From positions 1 through 48,425 of the IMG/VR virus record IMGVR_UViG_3300031976_000138: a DNA stretch of 48,425 nt. One strand, given 5' to 3'. The notes beneath the pieces were generated by a model. That model ran no database searches. It was not told where the DNA came from and saw only the letters and a program-made list of their open reading frames with translations. Numbering within the stretch: position 1 is the stretch's first letter; each line of letters opens with the position of its first letter. The stretch comes from a virus. Below are positions 18,607 to 45,264 of this stretch, one piece after another. The position numbers were made by a program, and so were the translations under genes.

Positions 18607-18659
18607 AATTTTACCTTTTTATATATATGTATATGATATGTGAAAGAGCTATAGTTATA

Positions 18660-20714
18660 CTAACATACGTCCTTTATGTCAAGCCAATTCGAACCTATTT
18701 TAGCTTCTAGTAGCATTGGTACATTCATTTTTACATTGTAAGCCTCCTCTATAATTTTATTTAAATTGTTATTCATATCTGTAATAATTTGTATTACGGC
18801 ATCTTTTTCGTGTGGGTGTACATCAACTACAATAGAATCGTGGACAGAATTAACAATGCAGGAGTTTAAAGGTTCTAACCTCTTGTCCATTTCCAAAAAC
18901 ACAACTGGCACAATGTCACCTGTAGCAAATCCTTGCACTGGATAGTTCTTTATCATTGTGAAGTGACTAAAATTACCATTAGGTCTTCTCTCTACGTCAG
19001 GAAATGCATACTGTCTTCCTGATGGTGTAGTTATCTTTCCATCATCAACTGCCTCATCCCCTAGTTTCTTGTGCCATTTAGCTACTCCAGTATACTTCTC
19101 ATTAAAGTGTTTATAGTATGCGGCCTCTGCTCTGCTTCTACCAAAACCACTCGCCCCGAAAAGGGGAGCAAAAGTATGCCCCTTTGCCACCTGTCGGGTT
19201 GTAGGTTGCCCTGCATCGCTGATAACTTTAGCTGTGTAGGCGTGTACGTCAAACCCTGTAGCTATCTCCTGCATAGCCACCTTATCTTGTGATAAAAATG
19301 CACAAACTCTAAATTCAAGTTGTGCAAAATCAGCTTCCAATATTCTGCCACTTTTCCATCGAGATACAAAGACACGCTTCACTGGAAATGTACCACCCCT
19401 AGGCATATTTTGCATATTAGGGTTGCGTCCTGAGAACCGCCCAGTAGATGTAATATGTTGTGTTAAACCAACGTGAAGAAAGCCGTTCTCTTTAGTATAG
19501 TTACTTATCCCCTCAACAAACGAAGATAGGTATGTACTTACAGCCGACAGACGCTTTATATCCTCTAAGAATTGTATAGCCACAGACATACGTTTTGTCT
19601 TAGCTGTAGCTATTAAAATATCTAAGTTGCCTTTACTGGTACTAAAACCATTTGCACTTACCCAAGTTTTATTTGGTGGGTTAAATCCTAGCCCTGCTAA
19701 TACTTTAGTCTGCCTAAGTTGATAGCCTCGACTTGAACAGTCAGGACACTTATTAGCTTTCTTAAAGTTAGTACCATCTTTCTTCTTCTTGTACCTACTA
19801 CCAACACCAGAACAAATAGGGCAACTAAAAGCTACTGTCTTTCTAAGTTTTACACTGTTTGTTTCTATGGCATCCCTAAACTCTTTATAGTCTTTCGTAA
19901 AGTCAAACAGTTCAACCCATTCTTTCTTGTCAATTACCTTCCTACTAAATACAACCTGAGATACTTGTTCAGGACTGTTAAGATTAACTGGAGTATCCCC
20001 CATTAAATCTCTTATTTGTCTAAATAGTCTATCCTGGATTGCAACCTTCTCTTCCTCAAACTCTCTCCTTACTTCTCGAAGGGCGAGTCTATCCACTCTG
20101 AACCCTCGCATGTACATTCGGGTAAGGGCTTTACAGACTTTGAAGGTAATGTCTCGAACTCTATCCATTCCGTTGGACTCGCTTTTGGCGAAGCCTTCGG
20201 TAATAGTAGCAGTGAACAATTCGGAAGTAGTGTCAATGTCGCAGCCAAGATAATGTGTAAGTTCTTTAAGCGGTATTTCATTTGTGTTGTATCCTTCTTT
20301 AAAGTATTTCTTTAATGTATCATCTTTCTGAAAGGTTAAGTTTCTGCGTTCAGCACAAGCCAGTAAGCTAAGAGGTTGCTTCTGCCCTCGCTGTAAAATA
20401 TATTCAGCTAACATCGTATCGTAGATGTCGCCATCATATTTAAACCCACTAGCCCACAACCACATTAGATCGTGCTGTGCGTTGTGCATTATAAGTAGTG
20501 TAGTTTGATCTAAGATAGTTTGTAACAGCCTAGAATTATCACCATTACGGTCAGTGTATTCAACGTGATCGAACGTCAACAGATGTCGTTCCGTAGGTAC
20601 ATCTACATTCTTAGTACCCACCTGTACCAAAAAGTTATTGGCTTCGAAGGGATCCATATGGGTCTTGCCATTACGTTTAGTAACTGTGTTCTCTACGTCT
20701 AGTACAATTCTCAC
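18660..20714 (-). CDS. Family A DNA polymerase with zinc-finger insertion
   Basis: I chose the GTG at 20714, giving a four-base GTGA overlap with the helicase gene and 684 aa; an ATG at 20750 would overlap by 40 nt. The N-terminal DEDDy 3'-5' exonuclease is intact: DVE (6-8), NAQHD (78-82), YLGCD (155-159). A zinc finger follows, with C298-x2-C301-x21-C323-x2-C326 in the DnaJ-like pattern CPICSGVG and CPDCSSRG. The polymerase domain has motif A EADFAQLEFR (D462), motif B RQVAKGHTFAPLFG (507-520) and motif C VHDS (624-627). Ser replaces the usual Glu after the catalytic Asp, and Phe replaces the usual Tyr in motif B. The inserted finger is the known oddity of HMO-2011-type phages. Confidence 0.95.
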   Translation of the reverse strand: MRIVLDVENTVTKRNGKTHMDPFEANNFLVQVGTKNVDVPTERHLLTFDHVEYTDRNGDNSRLLQTILDQTTLLIMHNAQHDLMWLWASGFKYDGDIYDTMLAEYILQRGQKQPLSLLACAERRNLTFQKDDTLKKYFKEGYNTNEIPLKELTHYLGCDIDTTSELFTATITEGFAKSESNGMDRVRDITFKVCKALTRMYMRGFRVDRLALREVRREFEEEKVAIQDRLFRQIRDLMGDTPVNLNSPEQVSQVVFSRKVIDKKEWVELFDFTKDYKEFRDAIETNSVKLRKTVAFSCPICSGVGSRYKKKKDGTNFKKANKCPDCSSRGYQLRQTKVLAGLGFNPPNKTWVSANGFSTSKGNLDILIATAKTKRMSVAIQFLEDIKRLSAVSTYLSSFVEGISNYTKENGFLHVGLTQHITSTGRFSGRNPNMQNMPRGGTFPVKRVFVSRWKSGRILEADFAQLEFRVCAFLSQDKVAMQEIATGFDVHAYTAKVISDAGQPTTRQVAKGHTFAPLFGASGFGRSRAEAAYYKHFNEKYTGVAKWHKKLGDEAVDDGKITTPSGRQYAFPDVERRPNGNFSHFTMIKNYPVQGFATGDIVPVVFLEMDKRLEPLNSCIVNSVHDSIVVDVHPHEKDAVIQIITDMNNNLNKIIEEAYNVKMNVPMLLEAKIGSNWLDIKDVC

Positions 20715-29552: not shown

Positions 29553-29752
29553 TATAAACGCCACCCATTTATATACATAAAACTTTGTCTATCTAAACAA
29601 TAGGCTCTAAATGTACTGTTTAAATCTGTAATCGGTTTAATTAATACAGAGCCGATATAATGGCTGGAATTCATAGTTAATTCTTTTGTATAGCCTTGCT
29701 TTATTGCGATGCTTTTACAAAATGGTTTATTCCTTTTGAATGATAATTTCAT
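29552..29752 (-). CDS. Small basic hypothetical protein (first leftward gene)
   Basis: The 66-aa basic protein begins MKLSFKRNKPFCKS and has a beta-like middle (GSVLIKPITDL) and a C-terminal MYINGWRL. It has an AAGGAT Shine-Dalgarno. Being the first gene leftward of the 1-kb control region, it is probably among the first expressed after infection. No family is recognised; the function is unknown. Confidence 0.7.
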   Translation of the reverse strand: MKLSFKRNKPFCKSIAIKQGYTKELTMNSSHYIGSVLIKPITDLNSTFRAYCLDRQSFMYINGWRL

Positions 29753-29862
29753 ATTGTTTTATCCTTTATAAATAACGAATCAGTAACGACTCTCAATAAT
29801 TGATATTAACATTTAACTGACAATAGATAAACCATATCAGTTAAAATAGTCGCTGCTGTTGC

Positions 29863-29969
29863 TACGCGCTCAGTGCATAGGTGCTATGCGCTCAGGGCAT
29901 GTGAGTAGTGACCGTTGTGTGAGAGTAGGTATGCGCTCAGTGCATAGGTACTTATGCGTCTACTGCATA
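29863..29969. repeat. Four phased 17-bp dyad repeats (iteron-like)
   Basis: The units are at 29863-29879, 29885-29901, 29930-29946 and 29953-29969. Each has the form TATGC, a 7-nt spacer (usually GCTCAGT), GCATA; units 1 and 2 carry single changes in one arm. Start-to-start distances are 22, 45 and 23 bp, so all lie on about the same helix face. They resemble iterons or operator sites for a dimeric protein. Confidence 0.85.
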
Positions 29970-30216
29970 GGTCTAGCTCGTGGTTGGTTGAGTAGGTTGT
30001 ATATCTTTTTGATTTTGAGTGTGCGCGCCACAAGTAGGGATGTACTTCTGAAACCATAACTTTGTATTAACTGATATAGTATTAGTTATAAGATGTAATG
30101 TTAACAAATGCTTAACTAAGTATAGTTCTAAATAAATATATTATCCTACTAGATAACCTATAGTTTAGGATATTTTCCCCACAAAATCAGTGCTTTATAT
30201 ATGTGAGTAGTTGCGA

Positions 30217-30246: not shown

Positions 30247-30438
30247 TACGTTATATATGTATAGTTACACACACGGGGTTTTTCCGACCTGGTAGTTTGT
30301 ACACCTAAAACTACTTTATTTGTGATCACATTCACTAGTAACCAGCTTATAACTGCGACATGTTGACACACTAAGCGCAATAATGTTTGACTACTAGCTA
30401 AAAATCAGTATAACTGCGTAGCAGTAGCAGCCTTAAAG

Positions 30439-30529: not shown

Positions 30530-30558
30530 TTGACACCCTATTAACTTTGTATTATGAT
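30530..30558 (+). promoter_or_regulatory. Strong sigma-70-like rightward promoter
   Basis: TTGACA (30530-30535), a 17-nt spacer and TATGAT (30553-30558): an exact -35, ideal spacing and a one-mismatch -10. The expected start is near 30565, exactly at the 5' arm of an inverted repeat. It is the best promoter match in the window. Confidence 0.85.
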
Positions 30559-30563
30559 TCTTG

Positions 30564-30627
30564 TTATGTAACATACATCACATAAAGGTTTGTCTCTCCC
30601 TCCCTTTAAACTTTGTATGTTACATAA
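30564..30627. repeat. 14-bp inverted repeat at the predicted transcription start
   Basis: TTATGTAACATACA (30564-30577) is perfectly complementary to TGTATGTTACATAA (30614-30627). In RNA this makes a 5'-end hairpin with an inner TAAAGG/CCUUUA extension. As DNA, each arm contains the near-palindrome TATGTNACATA, so each could also be an operator; a third TATGTTACATA is at 31331-31341. Confidence 0.85.
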
Positions 30628-30720
30628 ACTAAAATACTATTTGTTTGTATATTCCTGTATGAACCACCTTACGCGCTACATTAAGTATCCCTCCTTTCGT
30701 ACTTAGTGTGGCGCGTTTTT
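30565..30720 (+). ncRNA. Putative structured small RNA or attenuated leader
   Basis: A strong promoter (30530-30558) and a very strong terminator (30671-30720) bracket about 155 nt with no credible coding frame or Shine-Dalgarno. The RNA would begin in a 14-bp hairpin and end in a 17-bp hairpin plus U tract. It could be a stable regulatory RNA, or a leader whose terminator is overcome to turn on the rightward genes that start at 30757. Inferred from sequence only; expression is untested. Confidence 0.55.
30671..30720 (+). terminator. Strong rho-independent terminator ahead of the rightward genes
   Basis: A 17-bp stem pairs 30671-30687 (ACGCGCTACATTAAGTA) with 30700-30716 (TACTTAGTGTGGCGCGT), all positions paired with two G-U pairs, 12-nt loop, then a T tract. 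The two wobble pairs become mismatches on the other strand and there is no T tract there, so it acts rightward. Confidence 0.9.
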
Positions 30721-30756
30721 AACCCTCCTTAAAATTATATAAAATAAAACTTGACA

Positions 30757-31014
30757 ATGAGCAAAAAGCCAGTACAACTATATGCATCAGAGAATGTACT
30801 CGAAGAATTCTATAAAGCATTAATAGATAACAACCCTCGTGCCTTTAATCGTGTACATATCCCAAAATCTGATGTTTTCTATATTAGGGAAGCAATAAGG
30901 TGTAATACTGGTGTGACGTACACACTAGATCACGTTGAAAGGGCTATGTACTTAGAGGGCTGGTTAAGTAGGCAAGAAGTCTTAGACCCCAATAGGGAAC
31001 GAGAATACGGATAG
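30757..31014 (+). CDS. Small hypothetical protein, first rightward gene
   Basis: Starting at the ATG at 30757 (a TTG two codons upstream is possible) the product is 85 aa: MSKKPVQLYASENVLEEFYKALI, then a segment with HIPKSDVFYIREAI, and a C-terminal ERAMYLEGWLSRQEVL. It is predicted alpha-helical, like a small DNA-binding or adaptor protein, but no family is recognised. It lies 37 nt after the strong terminator at 30671-30720, so its expression probably depends on read-through or a separate promoter. Confidence 0.72.
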   Translation: MSKKPVQLYASENVLEEFYKALIDNNPRAFNRVHIPKSDVFYIREAIRCNTGVTYTLDHVERAMYLEGWLSRQEVLDPNREREYG

Positions 31015-31309: not shown

Positions 31310-32061
31310 TGACAAAAATGATTAGGCGGATATGTTACATAATAGCTCTGATAGGGGTTGCAATAGTAATTGTATCCTTATCGAGTTCTAAGAACGTATC
31401 TGCTGCCGATAGTAATACGGTTAGCAGCACAGTGGTTACAGATAAAAGTGTACCCACTGCGTCTGCCCCGTCTGTCGTCGTTAACAATAGCGATGTATGC
31501 AAATCGGCTGCCGCTGCCTCAGTACAAACACAAGTACTAGGTTTTGCTACGGGCATAACTATTACCGATGAAAACTGTGAGCGTATAAAACTAGCTCGTA
31601 GCCTGTACGGAATGGGTATGAAGGTAGCGGCAATATCAACCCTTTGTATGGATGCAAGGGTGTTTGATTCGATGTGGATGGCAGGTACGCCCTGTCCATT
31701 TATGGGAAAGATAGGGAATGAAGCTCTATTAGCCTGGAACAAGAACGTATCACTTATTCCAGCAAAATCTGAGATCAGAACCTTAAAAGAAATAGAGATA
31801 GCCGAAGAAGCTCTAGCTGAGAAGAAAGCGGCTGTACTAGCTAAGAAAGAAATAAAAGCACAGGAAGAGAATAACAAAATTGAGGCGGCTCGTTTAAAAG
31901 AAGAAAAACGTCTTCTAGTTAAAGAAGAGAAGCGACAAAAGAAACTAGAACTAAAGAAACGTAAGGCCCTAGCTGAAAAACGTAAAGAAAGAAGCGCAGA
32001 TGGCGACAAGAAAAAAGGTACTTGGGTATTCCCTATTGCCGCTCTTCTTTTGCTTTTATAG
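31309..32061 (+). CDS. Secreted/membrane-anchored protein with charged coiled coil
   Basis: The 250-aa protein starts with a basic stretch and a hydrophobic segment (about 8-24), ending in NVSAAD, a good signal-peptide cleavage context. A compact domain with conserved Cys follows (CKSAAAASVQTQ, ENCERIKLARSLYGMG, STLCMDARVF, GTPCPFMGKIG). I recall this in other marine phages without a function. A long Lys/Glu/Arg coiled coil (about 150-235) follows, and the last residues are hydrophobic (WVFPIAALLLLL). It starts in a TAATG overlap and ends 62 nt into the next gene. Export or envelope association is likely; a spanin-like role is possible but no lipobox is seen. Confidence 0.78.
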   Translation: MTKMIRRICYIIALIGVAIVIVSLSSSKNVSAADSNTVSSTVVTDKSVPTASAPSVVVNNSDVCKSAAAASVQTQVLGFATGITITDENCERIKLARSLYGMGMKVAAISTLCMDARVFDSMWMAGTPCPFMGKIGNEALLAWNKNVSLIPAKSEIRTLKEIEIAEEALAEKKAAVLAKKEIKAQEENNKIEAARLKEEKRLLVKEEKRQKKLELKKRKALAEKRKERSADGDKKKGTWVFPIAALLLLL

Positions 32062-44130: not shown

Positions 44131-45030
44131 ATGTCGGAAGTAGCAGTCCAAAAAGAAATACCTGTAGTGGTAAATTCCCCAGCACACAACAGAAACGTAG
44201 CTCGTGCAGCTAAAGATCAAGAAGAATTAGATCAACTAATGAAAGATGCAGGGCGTAGCCCTAACGTAGAAACTCAAGAAGATATATCAGACGACCACCC
44301 TTTAAATAAAGTTGAAACTAAAGACGAAGATGAAGGTTTAACTGCAGAGGAAAAGTCTTTTAAGAAACGCTACGGTGATTTACGAAAATACACATCTGAA
44401 AAAGAAAAAGAAATGCAGTCTCGTGTAGAAAAGCTAGAGTCTCAACTTACCCTAGCATCAAAGAATGAACTTGTGTTACCTAAGTCTACAGCAGAAGTTG
44501 ACGCTTGGGCCAGACAACACCCTGATGTTGCTGCCATAGTTGAATCAATTGCAGATAAAAAAGCAACAGAAAGATCTACTGCTTTAGAAAGTAGAATGAA
44601 AGAGTTTGAACAGGTCAGAGCAGACGCAATACGAGAAAAAGCTGAAGCAGAACTTGTTAGTATGCACCCTGACTTTGAAGCAATTAGAAGTGGTGACGAA
44701 TTTCATAACTGGGCAGACGAACAACCTAAATGGGTTAAAGATGCACTATATGAAAATATGGATGACGCTAAATCTGTTGCTCGTGTCATTGACTTATACA
44801 AACAAGATAAAGGCATAACTAAAGCTACTACAATGTCATCAGACAAAGCTGCCGCTTCTTCAGTTAAAGCTAGAACTAGAACTTCACCAGAAGCAGATGA
44901 AACTAAAAAGTATCTTAGTGAGTCTGTGGTTAACCGAATGTCCCCCCGTGAGTACGCTAAAAGATCCGATGAGATTATGGCTGCTATGCGAGAGGGCAAG
45001 TTTACTTACGATATGTCAAAAAAGACTTGA
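44131..45030 (+). CDS. Capsid scaffolding protein
   Basis: The 299-aa protein is strongly charged and predicted alpha-helical, with a coiled coil (about 85-115) after an acidic linker. A conserved segment (VDAWARQHPDVAAIVESIADKK, about 130-150) and a helix-rich second half follow. It lies immediately before the major capsid gene, as expected for the scaffold. An AAAGGAG Shine-Dalgarno precedes the ATG. Its stop codon sits inside the -35 box of the promoter for the capsid gene (45027-45054). Role inferred from order, charge and helicity. Confidence 0.82.
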   Translation: MSEVAVQKEIPVVVNSPAHNRNVARAAKDQEELDQLMKDAGRSPNVETQEDISDDHPLNKVETKDEDEGLTAEEKSFKKRYGDLRKYTSEKEKEMQSRVEKLESQLTLASKNELVLPKSTAEVDAWARQHPDVAAIVESIADKKATERSTALESRMKEFEQVRADAIREKAEAELVSMHPDFEAIRSGDEFHNWADEQPKWVKDALYENMDDAKSVARVIDLYKQDKGITKATTMSSDKAAASSVKARTRTSPEADETKKYLSESVVNRMSPREYAKRSDEIMAAMREGKFTYDMSKKT

Positions 45031-45054
45031 CACTTAGAATTTTGTAAGTATAAC
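45027..45054 (+). promoter_or_regulatory. Sigma-70-like promoter for the major capsid gene
   Basis: TTGACA (45027-45032), 16-nt spacer, TATAAC (45049-45054). The expected start, about 45061, is 204 nt ahead of the capsid ATG. The -35 box overlaps the scaffold stop codon. Confidence 0.75.
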
Positions 45055-45264
45055 TATACACATATACACGAATTGTTTTATTTTAATGTATATGTTTCAT
45101 CAAACACTAAGCCGCAAAGAACTACCCTATCAAGTATAGGCCCAGTTTAAAACAAGATCGACGGATCTAAAATTAAATTGCACCCTAGAAAACGACAGGC
45201 CCCTTTAGTGGATATAAGTTGTGTTTACTTCACATAGCCATATCTTAACGGAGGATTTTATACA
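45031..45264. promoter_or_regulatory. Capsid leader region (234 nt, no gene)
   Basis: No coding frame is seen. It holds the promoter above, a 9-bp inverted repeat at the start site (45060-45095), a GATC-4-GATC pair near 45155, and an AACGGAGGATT Shine-Dalgarno before the capsid ATG. A long structured leader would fit high-level capsid expression. Confidence 0.65.
45060..45095 (+). repeat. Inverted repeat at the predicted capsid transcript start
   Basis: ACATATACA (45060-45068) pairs perfectly with TGTATATGT (45087-45095), loop 18 nt. It would put a hairpin at the very 5' end of the capsid mRNA, matching the layout seen at 30564-30627. Confidence 0.75.

Follow-up and report, generated by a model that had tools for sequence, protein, structure and literature searches.

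The gap between the early and late genes of a marine phage holds a predicted small RNA with anti-Shine-Dalgarno loops, and we put at about one half the probability that this is a self-standing phage RNA which represses the phage's own early genes, as judged from comparison of related genomes. The window (the whole stretch of DNA analysed, 48,425 nucleotides) is the 48.4-kb IMG/VR virus record IMGVR_UViG_3300031976_000138. Its genes match DNA polymerase, ribonucleotide reductase, terminase and adaptor, and by its genes, the 85-aa gene above all, the genome is placed as an HMO-2011-type podovirus of marine Alphaproteobacteria. It shares with this type, which is among the ocean's most abundant phage groups, both the 85-aa gene and the divergent early and late arms. 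The early arm starts at 29752 and runs leftward, the late arm starts at 30757 and runs rightward, a layout that is the same in CRP-603 and HMO-2011, and the predicted RNA is housed in the gap of ~1 kb between the arms. To the left of this divergence, at 29858-29975, we also observed four imperfect direct repeats ~22-23 nt apart (ATGCGCTCAGTGCATAGGT), which are possible operators or iterons.

The predicted RNA and its conservation

The first-pass annotation had proposed a promoter, a 5' hairpin and a terminator in this gap, and had left two options, a stable phage small RNA or control of the late genes by antitermination. The features are collected in Table 1. The proposed promoter (P2) is indeed a near-consensus sigma-70 promoter, and its TTGACA is exact in 79 of the 82 distinct sequences that were extracted upstream of the 85-aa gene, including those of roseophages CRP-603, CRP-2 and CRP-207. 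Taken overall, the promoter scan gave 16 sites against 19 in shuffles, i.e. no excess; a chance origin of P2 is therefore excluded not by the scan counts, but by the conservation of TTGACA at this place and by the covariation of the stems downstream.

Table 1. Features of the early-late gap and related promoter elements (window coordinates)
Feature	Position	Strand	Remarks
P1, upstream rightward promoter TTGACT-N16-TATAACT	30387..30415	+	exact class match; similar element upstream in CRP-207
P2, promoter of predicted small RNA, TTGACA-17-TATGAT	30530..30558	+	11/12 consensus bases
Predicted small RNA, about 158 nt	about 30564..30722	+	fold z -9.7; conserved layout
5' hairpin	30564..30627	+	13-bp stem, 30564-30576 with 30615-30627; z -6.6 alone
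Anti-Shine-Dalgarno-like loop of 5' hairpin, GUCUCUCCCUCCC	30592..30604	+	unpaired in predicted fold
Small middle hairpin	30643..30664	+	predicted in fold only
Intrinsic terminator	30671..30720	+	18-pair stem, 30671-30688 with 30699-30716; T tract 30716-30720; z -7.8
Terminator loop, CCCUCCUUUC	30689-30698	+	10 nt
P3, promoter TTGACA-N16-TACAACT	30751..30779	+	class match; after terminator, overlaps start of 85-aa gene
85-aa gene	30757..31014	+	first gene of late arm; no assigned function
TTGACW-N16/17-TAHAACT match	18653-18682	-	
TTGACW-N16/17-TAHAACT match	45027-45055	+	

The stretch 30565-30722 as a whole folds with -50.2 kcal/mol, as compared with -19.7 +/- 3.2 kcal/mol for shuffled sequences, and the 5' hairpin holds up when it is folded alone. 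The terminator hairpin with its T tract is likewise real, except that the stem proposed as 17 bp has 18 pairs. On the rightward strand it reaches -25.6 kcal/mol versus -17.0 on the other, and full pairing is found only rightward, which agrees with its description as a dedicated rightward terminator. The interval of the predicted RNA contains no ORF of at least 60 aa, so that the claim of no gene between promoter and terminator stands as well. As far as sequence can tell, the stretch has what defines an intrinsically terminated trans-acting small RNA, namely its own promoter, a structured body, its own terminator and no ORF. We considered a coding role for the RNA and rejected it, since relatives differ in their longest closed ORF, which ranges from 2 to 46 aa, and a conserved peptide is unlikely. 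A further CCCTCCTT (AAGGAGGG on the opposite strand) follows the terminator directly, at 30720-30730, and most members of the window clade have it.

This arrangement is seen again in phages outside the HMO-2011 clade, with TTGACA-17/18-TAnnnT followed by a hairpin that begins at +1, then a terminator stem of greater length and a pyrimidine loop. Compensatory changes, which had been proposed as a check on the stems, were observed in both of them. Within the window clade, 100% of the cells of the 5' stem are paired and 2 pairs are changed on both sides, and the terminator has 95.8% of cells paired and 4 pairs changed on both sides. The CRP-603 type shows both-sided changes in 11 of 36 pairs and the CRP-207 type in 5 of 30. 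These covariation counts, which come from small samples of related phages, support a structure without proving it. The stem sequences themselves drift quickly, with their pairing retained.

This behaviour of the stems also bears on a purely DNA-level account, in which the two arms of the 5' hairpin, TATGTAACATA and TATGTTACATA, are near-palindromic repressor sites rather than an RNA stem. In the window each arm does form a near-palindrome, with a third copy at 31331. However, the arms of sister phages lose their own symmetry (TGTGTAACATA, TATGTAACGTA) yet stay complementary to each other, G-U pairs occur in the stems, and unrelated stem sequences occupy this place in other clades; we find such operators hardly credible.

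The loops, in turn, keep CUCC or CCUCC, an anti-Shine-Dalgarno sequence. Either CUCCCUCC or CUCCUC is present in 76 of the 82 sequences, and the best pyrimidine stretch has on average 13.4 of 14 nt unpaired. In the window clade both hairpins bear pyrimidine loops, and CUCCCUCC is invariant in that of the 5' hairpin; other clades carry UGUGUCUCCUCUCC-like loops on the long terminator stem. Most relatives share the loop core UGUCUCC, from which the loop of the window clade differs. In viral contigs, the loop motif was located 75-103 nt ahead of the 85-aa gene; its other occurrences were stray coding matches in unrelated sequence. Among 84,980 bacterial and archaeal genomes it turned up only in scattered unrelated ones.

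In the HMO-2011 clade this stretch has no CUCC in 65 of 76 loci, and CRP-1, CRP-345, CRP-9 and CRP-13 are without the RNA upstream of the 85-aa gene. Loci of this clade (L251-L330 and L209) have the gap filled with short palindromes, CACTTAAGTG and AAGTGATAC, instead of a CU-loop RNA; these are perhaps a different regulatory RNA or operators. Two contigs show peculiarities of another kind: in L003 (about 570-662) the terminator end and gene start are duplicated over about 90 nt, possibly an assembly artefact, and L076 opens (1-55) with Illumina Nextera adapter sequence.

Because promoter, hairpins and terminator are kept, the stems change fast with their pairing preserved and the loops hold on to CUCC/CCUCC, we favour the first of the two options, a stable phage small RNA, as the reading to which sequence conservation points.

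Promoter P3 and the start of the late arm

Three rightward promoters, P1, P2 and P3, stand in a row here. P1 and P3 belong to a class, TTGACW-N16/17-TAHAACT, with 4 exact matches in the window against 0.06 expected; it is also found in CRP-603 and HMO-2011, e.g. just upstream of the coat gene. Of 149 distinct regions, 148 have P3 (TTGACW-N16-TAHAACT) lying across the start of the 85-aa gene. Where the start codon of this gene has moved (L013, L072, CRP-9 and CRP-13), the -35 to -10 spacing of P3 is unchanged, and we therefore consider that P3 is conserved for promoter function, beyond any constraint from the coding sequence.

Since P3 sits past the terminator, the late genes can be started from beyond it, and the late operon is probably transcribed from this promoter of its own, as its position and conservation suggest. 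This weakens the antitermination option of the first-pass annotation. As an attenuator, the site would end transcripts from P1 and P2 unless an antitermination factor carried them into the late genes, or at least into the 85-aa gene. In all clades examined, the 85-aa gene begins 30-40 nt after the terminator, which fits with such a role. A transcript from P3 would moreover begin inside the 85-aa ORF, and for this reason read-through may still serve that gene alone. Against attenuation, P3 lies beyond the terminator at nearly all of these gene starts, no alternative antiterminator pairing is apparent in the predicted folds, and the CU loop motif is left unexplained. We regard it as unlikely.

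Of the candidates in the viral contigs scanned, 474 are relatives of the 85-aa gene, which is also present in CRP phages and HMO-2011 and lacks a Shine-Dalgarno site. It has no Pfam or PHROG match and no relative in the 84,980 bacterial and archaeal genomes. The protein is predicted to be all-helical with moderate confidence (pLDDT 74), and its predicted fold has no significant PDB match. It is highly conserved, with a promoter across its start codon.

Early-gene ribosome sites as candidate targets

The small RNA, if made, has predicted pairing partners in the opposite arm. The CRP-603 loop is perfectly complementary over 11 nt to the start site of the DNA helicase (gp28), AGAGGAGACACgacATG, and is complementary over 8-10 nt at gp05, gp13 and gp15. 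More generally, GGAGACA, the complement of the loop core UGUCUCC, occurs in ribosome sites of early genes. In RNA-bearing phages outside the window clade, 231 early start sites have GGAG, and ACA follows it at 50 of them; the late GGAG sites of RNA-bearing phages have it in 2/102 cases (p 4e-7 versus early) and the early GGAG sites of RNA-less relatives in 3/82 (p 6e-5 versus RNA-bearing early), all of these counts coming from related phages that are not independent samples. Counted by gene family, the values are 37/267 early, 2/227 late and 3/123 RNA-less early. The control variants GGAGATA and GGAGAAA showed no enrichment in early genes of RNA-bearing phages.

For the window itself we observed no clear target: none of its early genes has a start site with at least 8 nt matching its own 5' loop. 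Elsewhere in its clade the start sites differ along with the loop: two early sites of L007 match its loop over 10 nt, and L010 has the site AAGGAGAGACTAA. GAGAGA in this clade is carried by 6 of 75 early sites and by none of 107 late ones (p 0.004, as one of several motifs tried). When loops were permuted between genomes, the first loci gave a better fit to the own genome (p 0.003). Loci fetched later did not replicate this when taken by themselves (p about 0.4), in part since one core is common to most loops. The automatic loop finder of the permutation took a wrong stretch for L002, L007 and L010. Phages with loops lacking UGUCUCC had fewer GGAGACA sites, at a level that was not significant (p 0.18).

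The specificity of these sites bears on whether the RNA acts mainly on the host, its anti-Shine-Dalgarno loops occluding the ribosome sites of many host mRNAs in favour of phage translation. In favour of this, GGAG is found at 46 of 108 starts on two roseobacter plasmids, and the 85-aa gene itself lacks a Shine-Dalgarno site. However, GGAGACA, with the ACA extension that fits the loop, stands at only 1/108 of these starts, on plasmids that serve as a stand-in for host genomes and differ in base composition, and is therefore not simply the host's habit. The extension is also common in the phage early genes, which would be hit themselves. A host-directed role is an unlikely alternative. Another is that the loops serve as a decoy, binding Rho or some other RNA-binding protein and so removing it from action. 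Rho prefers unpaired C/U RNA, and the loops consist of C and U only, are unpaired and are kept open by strong stems. A generic pyrimidine site, however, leaves both the conservation of the UGUCUCC core and its match to early start sites unexplained, and we consider a decoy very unlikely.

Repression of the phage's own early genes would then proceed as follows. The host-type promoter P2 would start the small RNA, which is framed by the 5'-end hairpin and the long terminator stem, with the anti-Shine-Dalgarno pyrimidine loops as its conserved unpaired parts. The RNA would be made and stable, and its loops would block translation by pairing with the ribosome-binding sites of early mRNAs, which are transcribed from the opposite arm. 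As genomes multiply, the RNA may accumulate and turn the early genes down, the late genes being spared as their sites have no loop match. The timing is a guess, because P2 looks constitutive. A bolder and more tentative proposal, which we would not yet bet on, is that one anti-Shine-Dalgarno RNA is the master off-switch for the many early genes sharing GGAGACA, acting either at the early-to-late transition or in lysogeny as an RNA-based repressor. If true, a viral RNA marks and silences its own gene set, with a short addition to the ribosome-binding site as the mark. As the conserved RNA and its predicted pairing sites are present in isolates on cultured hosts (CRP-603, CRP-2 and CRP-207), this is testable now.

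In a lysogeny or immunity role the same pairing would silence the early genes in the prophage, as c4 RNA does. An integrase is present in 14 of the 15 RNA-bearing near-complete uncultured-phage genomes checked, the window included, and in all three RNA-bearing isolates, and the RNA-less CRP-9 and CRP-13 have none. On the other hand, an integrase is also found in HMO-2011, CRP-1 and CRP-345, which are without the RNA, and the lack of any relative of the 85-aa gene in the cellular genomes also speaks against it. Integration is proven only for a distant relative, CRP-3 (PMC6918029). We take such a role to be distinctly unlikely.

Relation to known regulatory RNAs

A search of Rfam gave no match at the gathering score, and loose thresholds returned only irrelevant weak matches. 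The mycobacterial C-rich-loop RNAs of the B11 type act near ribosome sites. B11 and similar RNAs (PMC10470900) have C-rich loops, and differ from the predicted RNA in being chromosomal and of another phylum. VpdS of VP882 and PreS of lambda are small trans-acting phage RNAs made during infection (PMC12197685); they are Hfq-dependent, with other targets and another structure. The main paper on the HMO-2011-type phage group mentions neither promoter, terminator nor noncoding RNA (PMC9038755), and the literature searched, with subscription papers outside its scope, yielded no earlier description of this phage RNA.

Closer in mechanism is the c4 RNA of phages P1 and P7 (PMC12197685), which prevents translation by pairing of its loops with a ribosome-binding site of the phage. 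A loop complementary to a phage ribosome-binding site is likewise found in CRP-603 and relatives, though not in the window. c4 has one target, ant, to which it is cis-linked, whereas the site would be common to many early genes in the present case; no antirepressor is annotated, and the two RNAs are unrelated in sequence and structure as far as Rfam shows.

The ar14/NfeR1 (cuckoo) RNAs of Alphaproteobacteria carry anti-Shine-Dalgarno hairpin loops that target ribosome-binding sites (PMC10746234, PMC3927594). They are chromosomal and have three or four hairpins, each bearing CCUCCUCCC, whereas the phage gene has one or two CU-loop hairpins; the exact motif is absent from the window and present in 5 of the 82 sequences. 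As in the cuckoo RNAs, the anti-Shine-Dalgarno loops are conserved while the stems diverge freely. Sites with which the phage loops may pair, being complementary to them, are enriched in early genes. By its putative mechanism, the phage RNA resembles both the ar14/cuckoo RNAs and c4.
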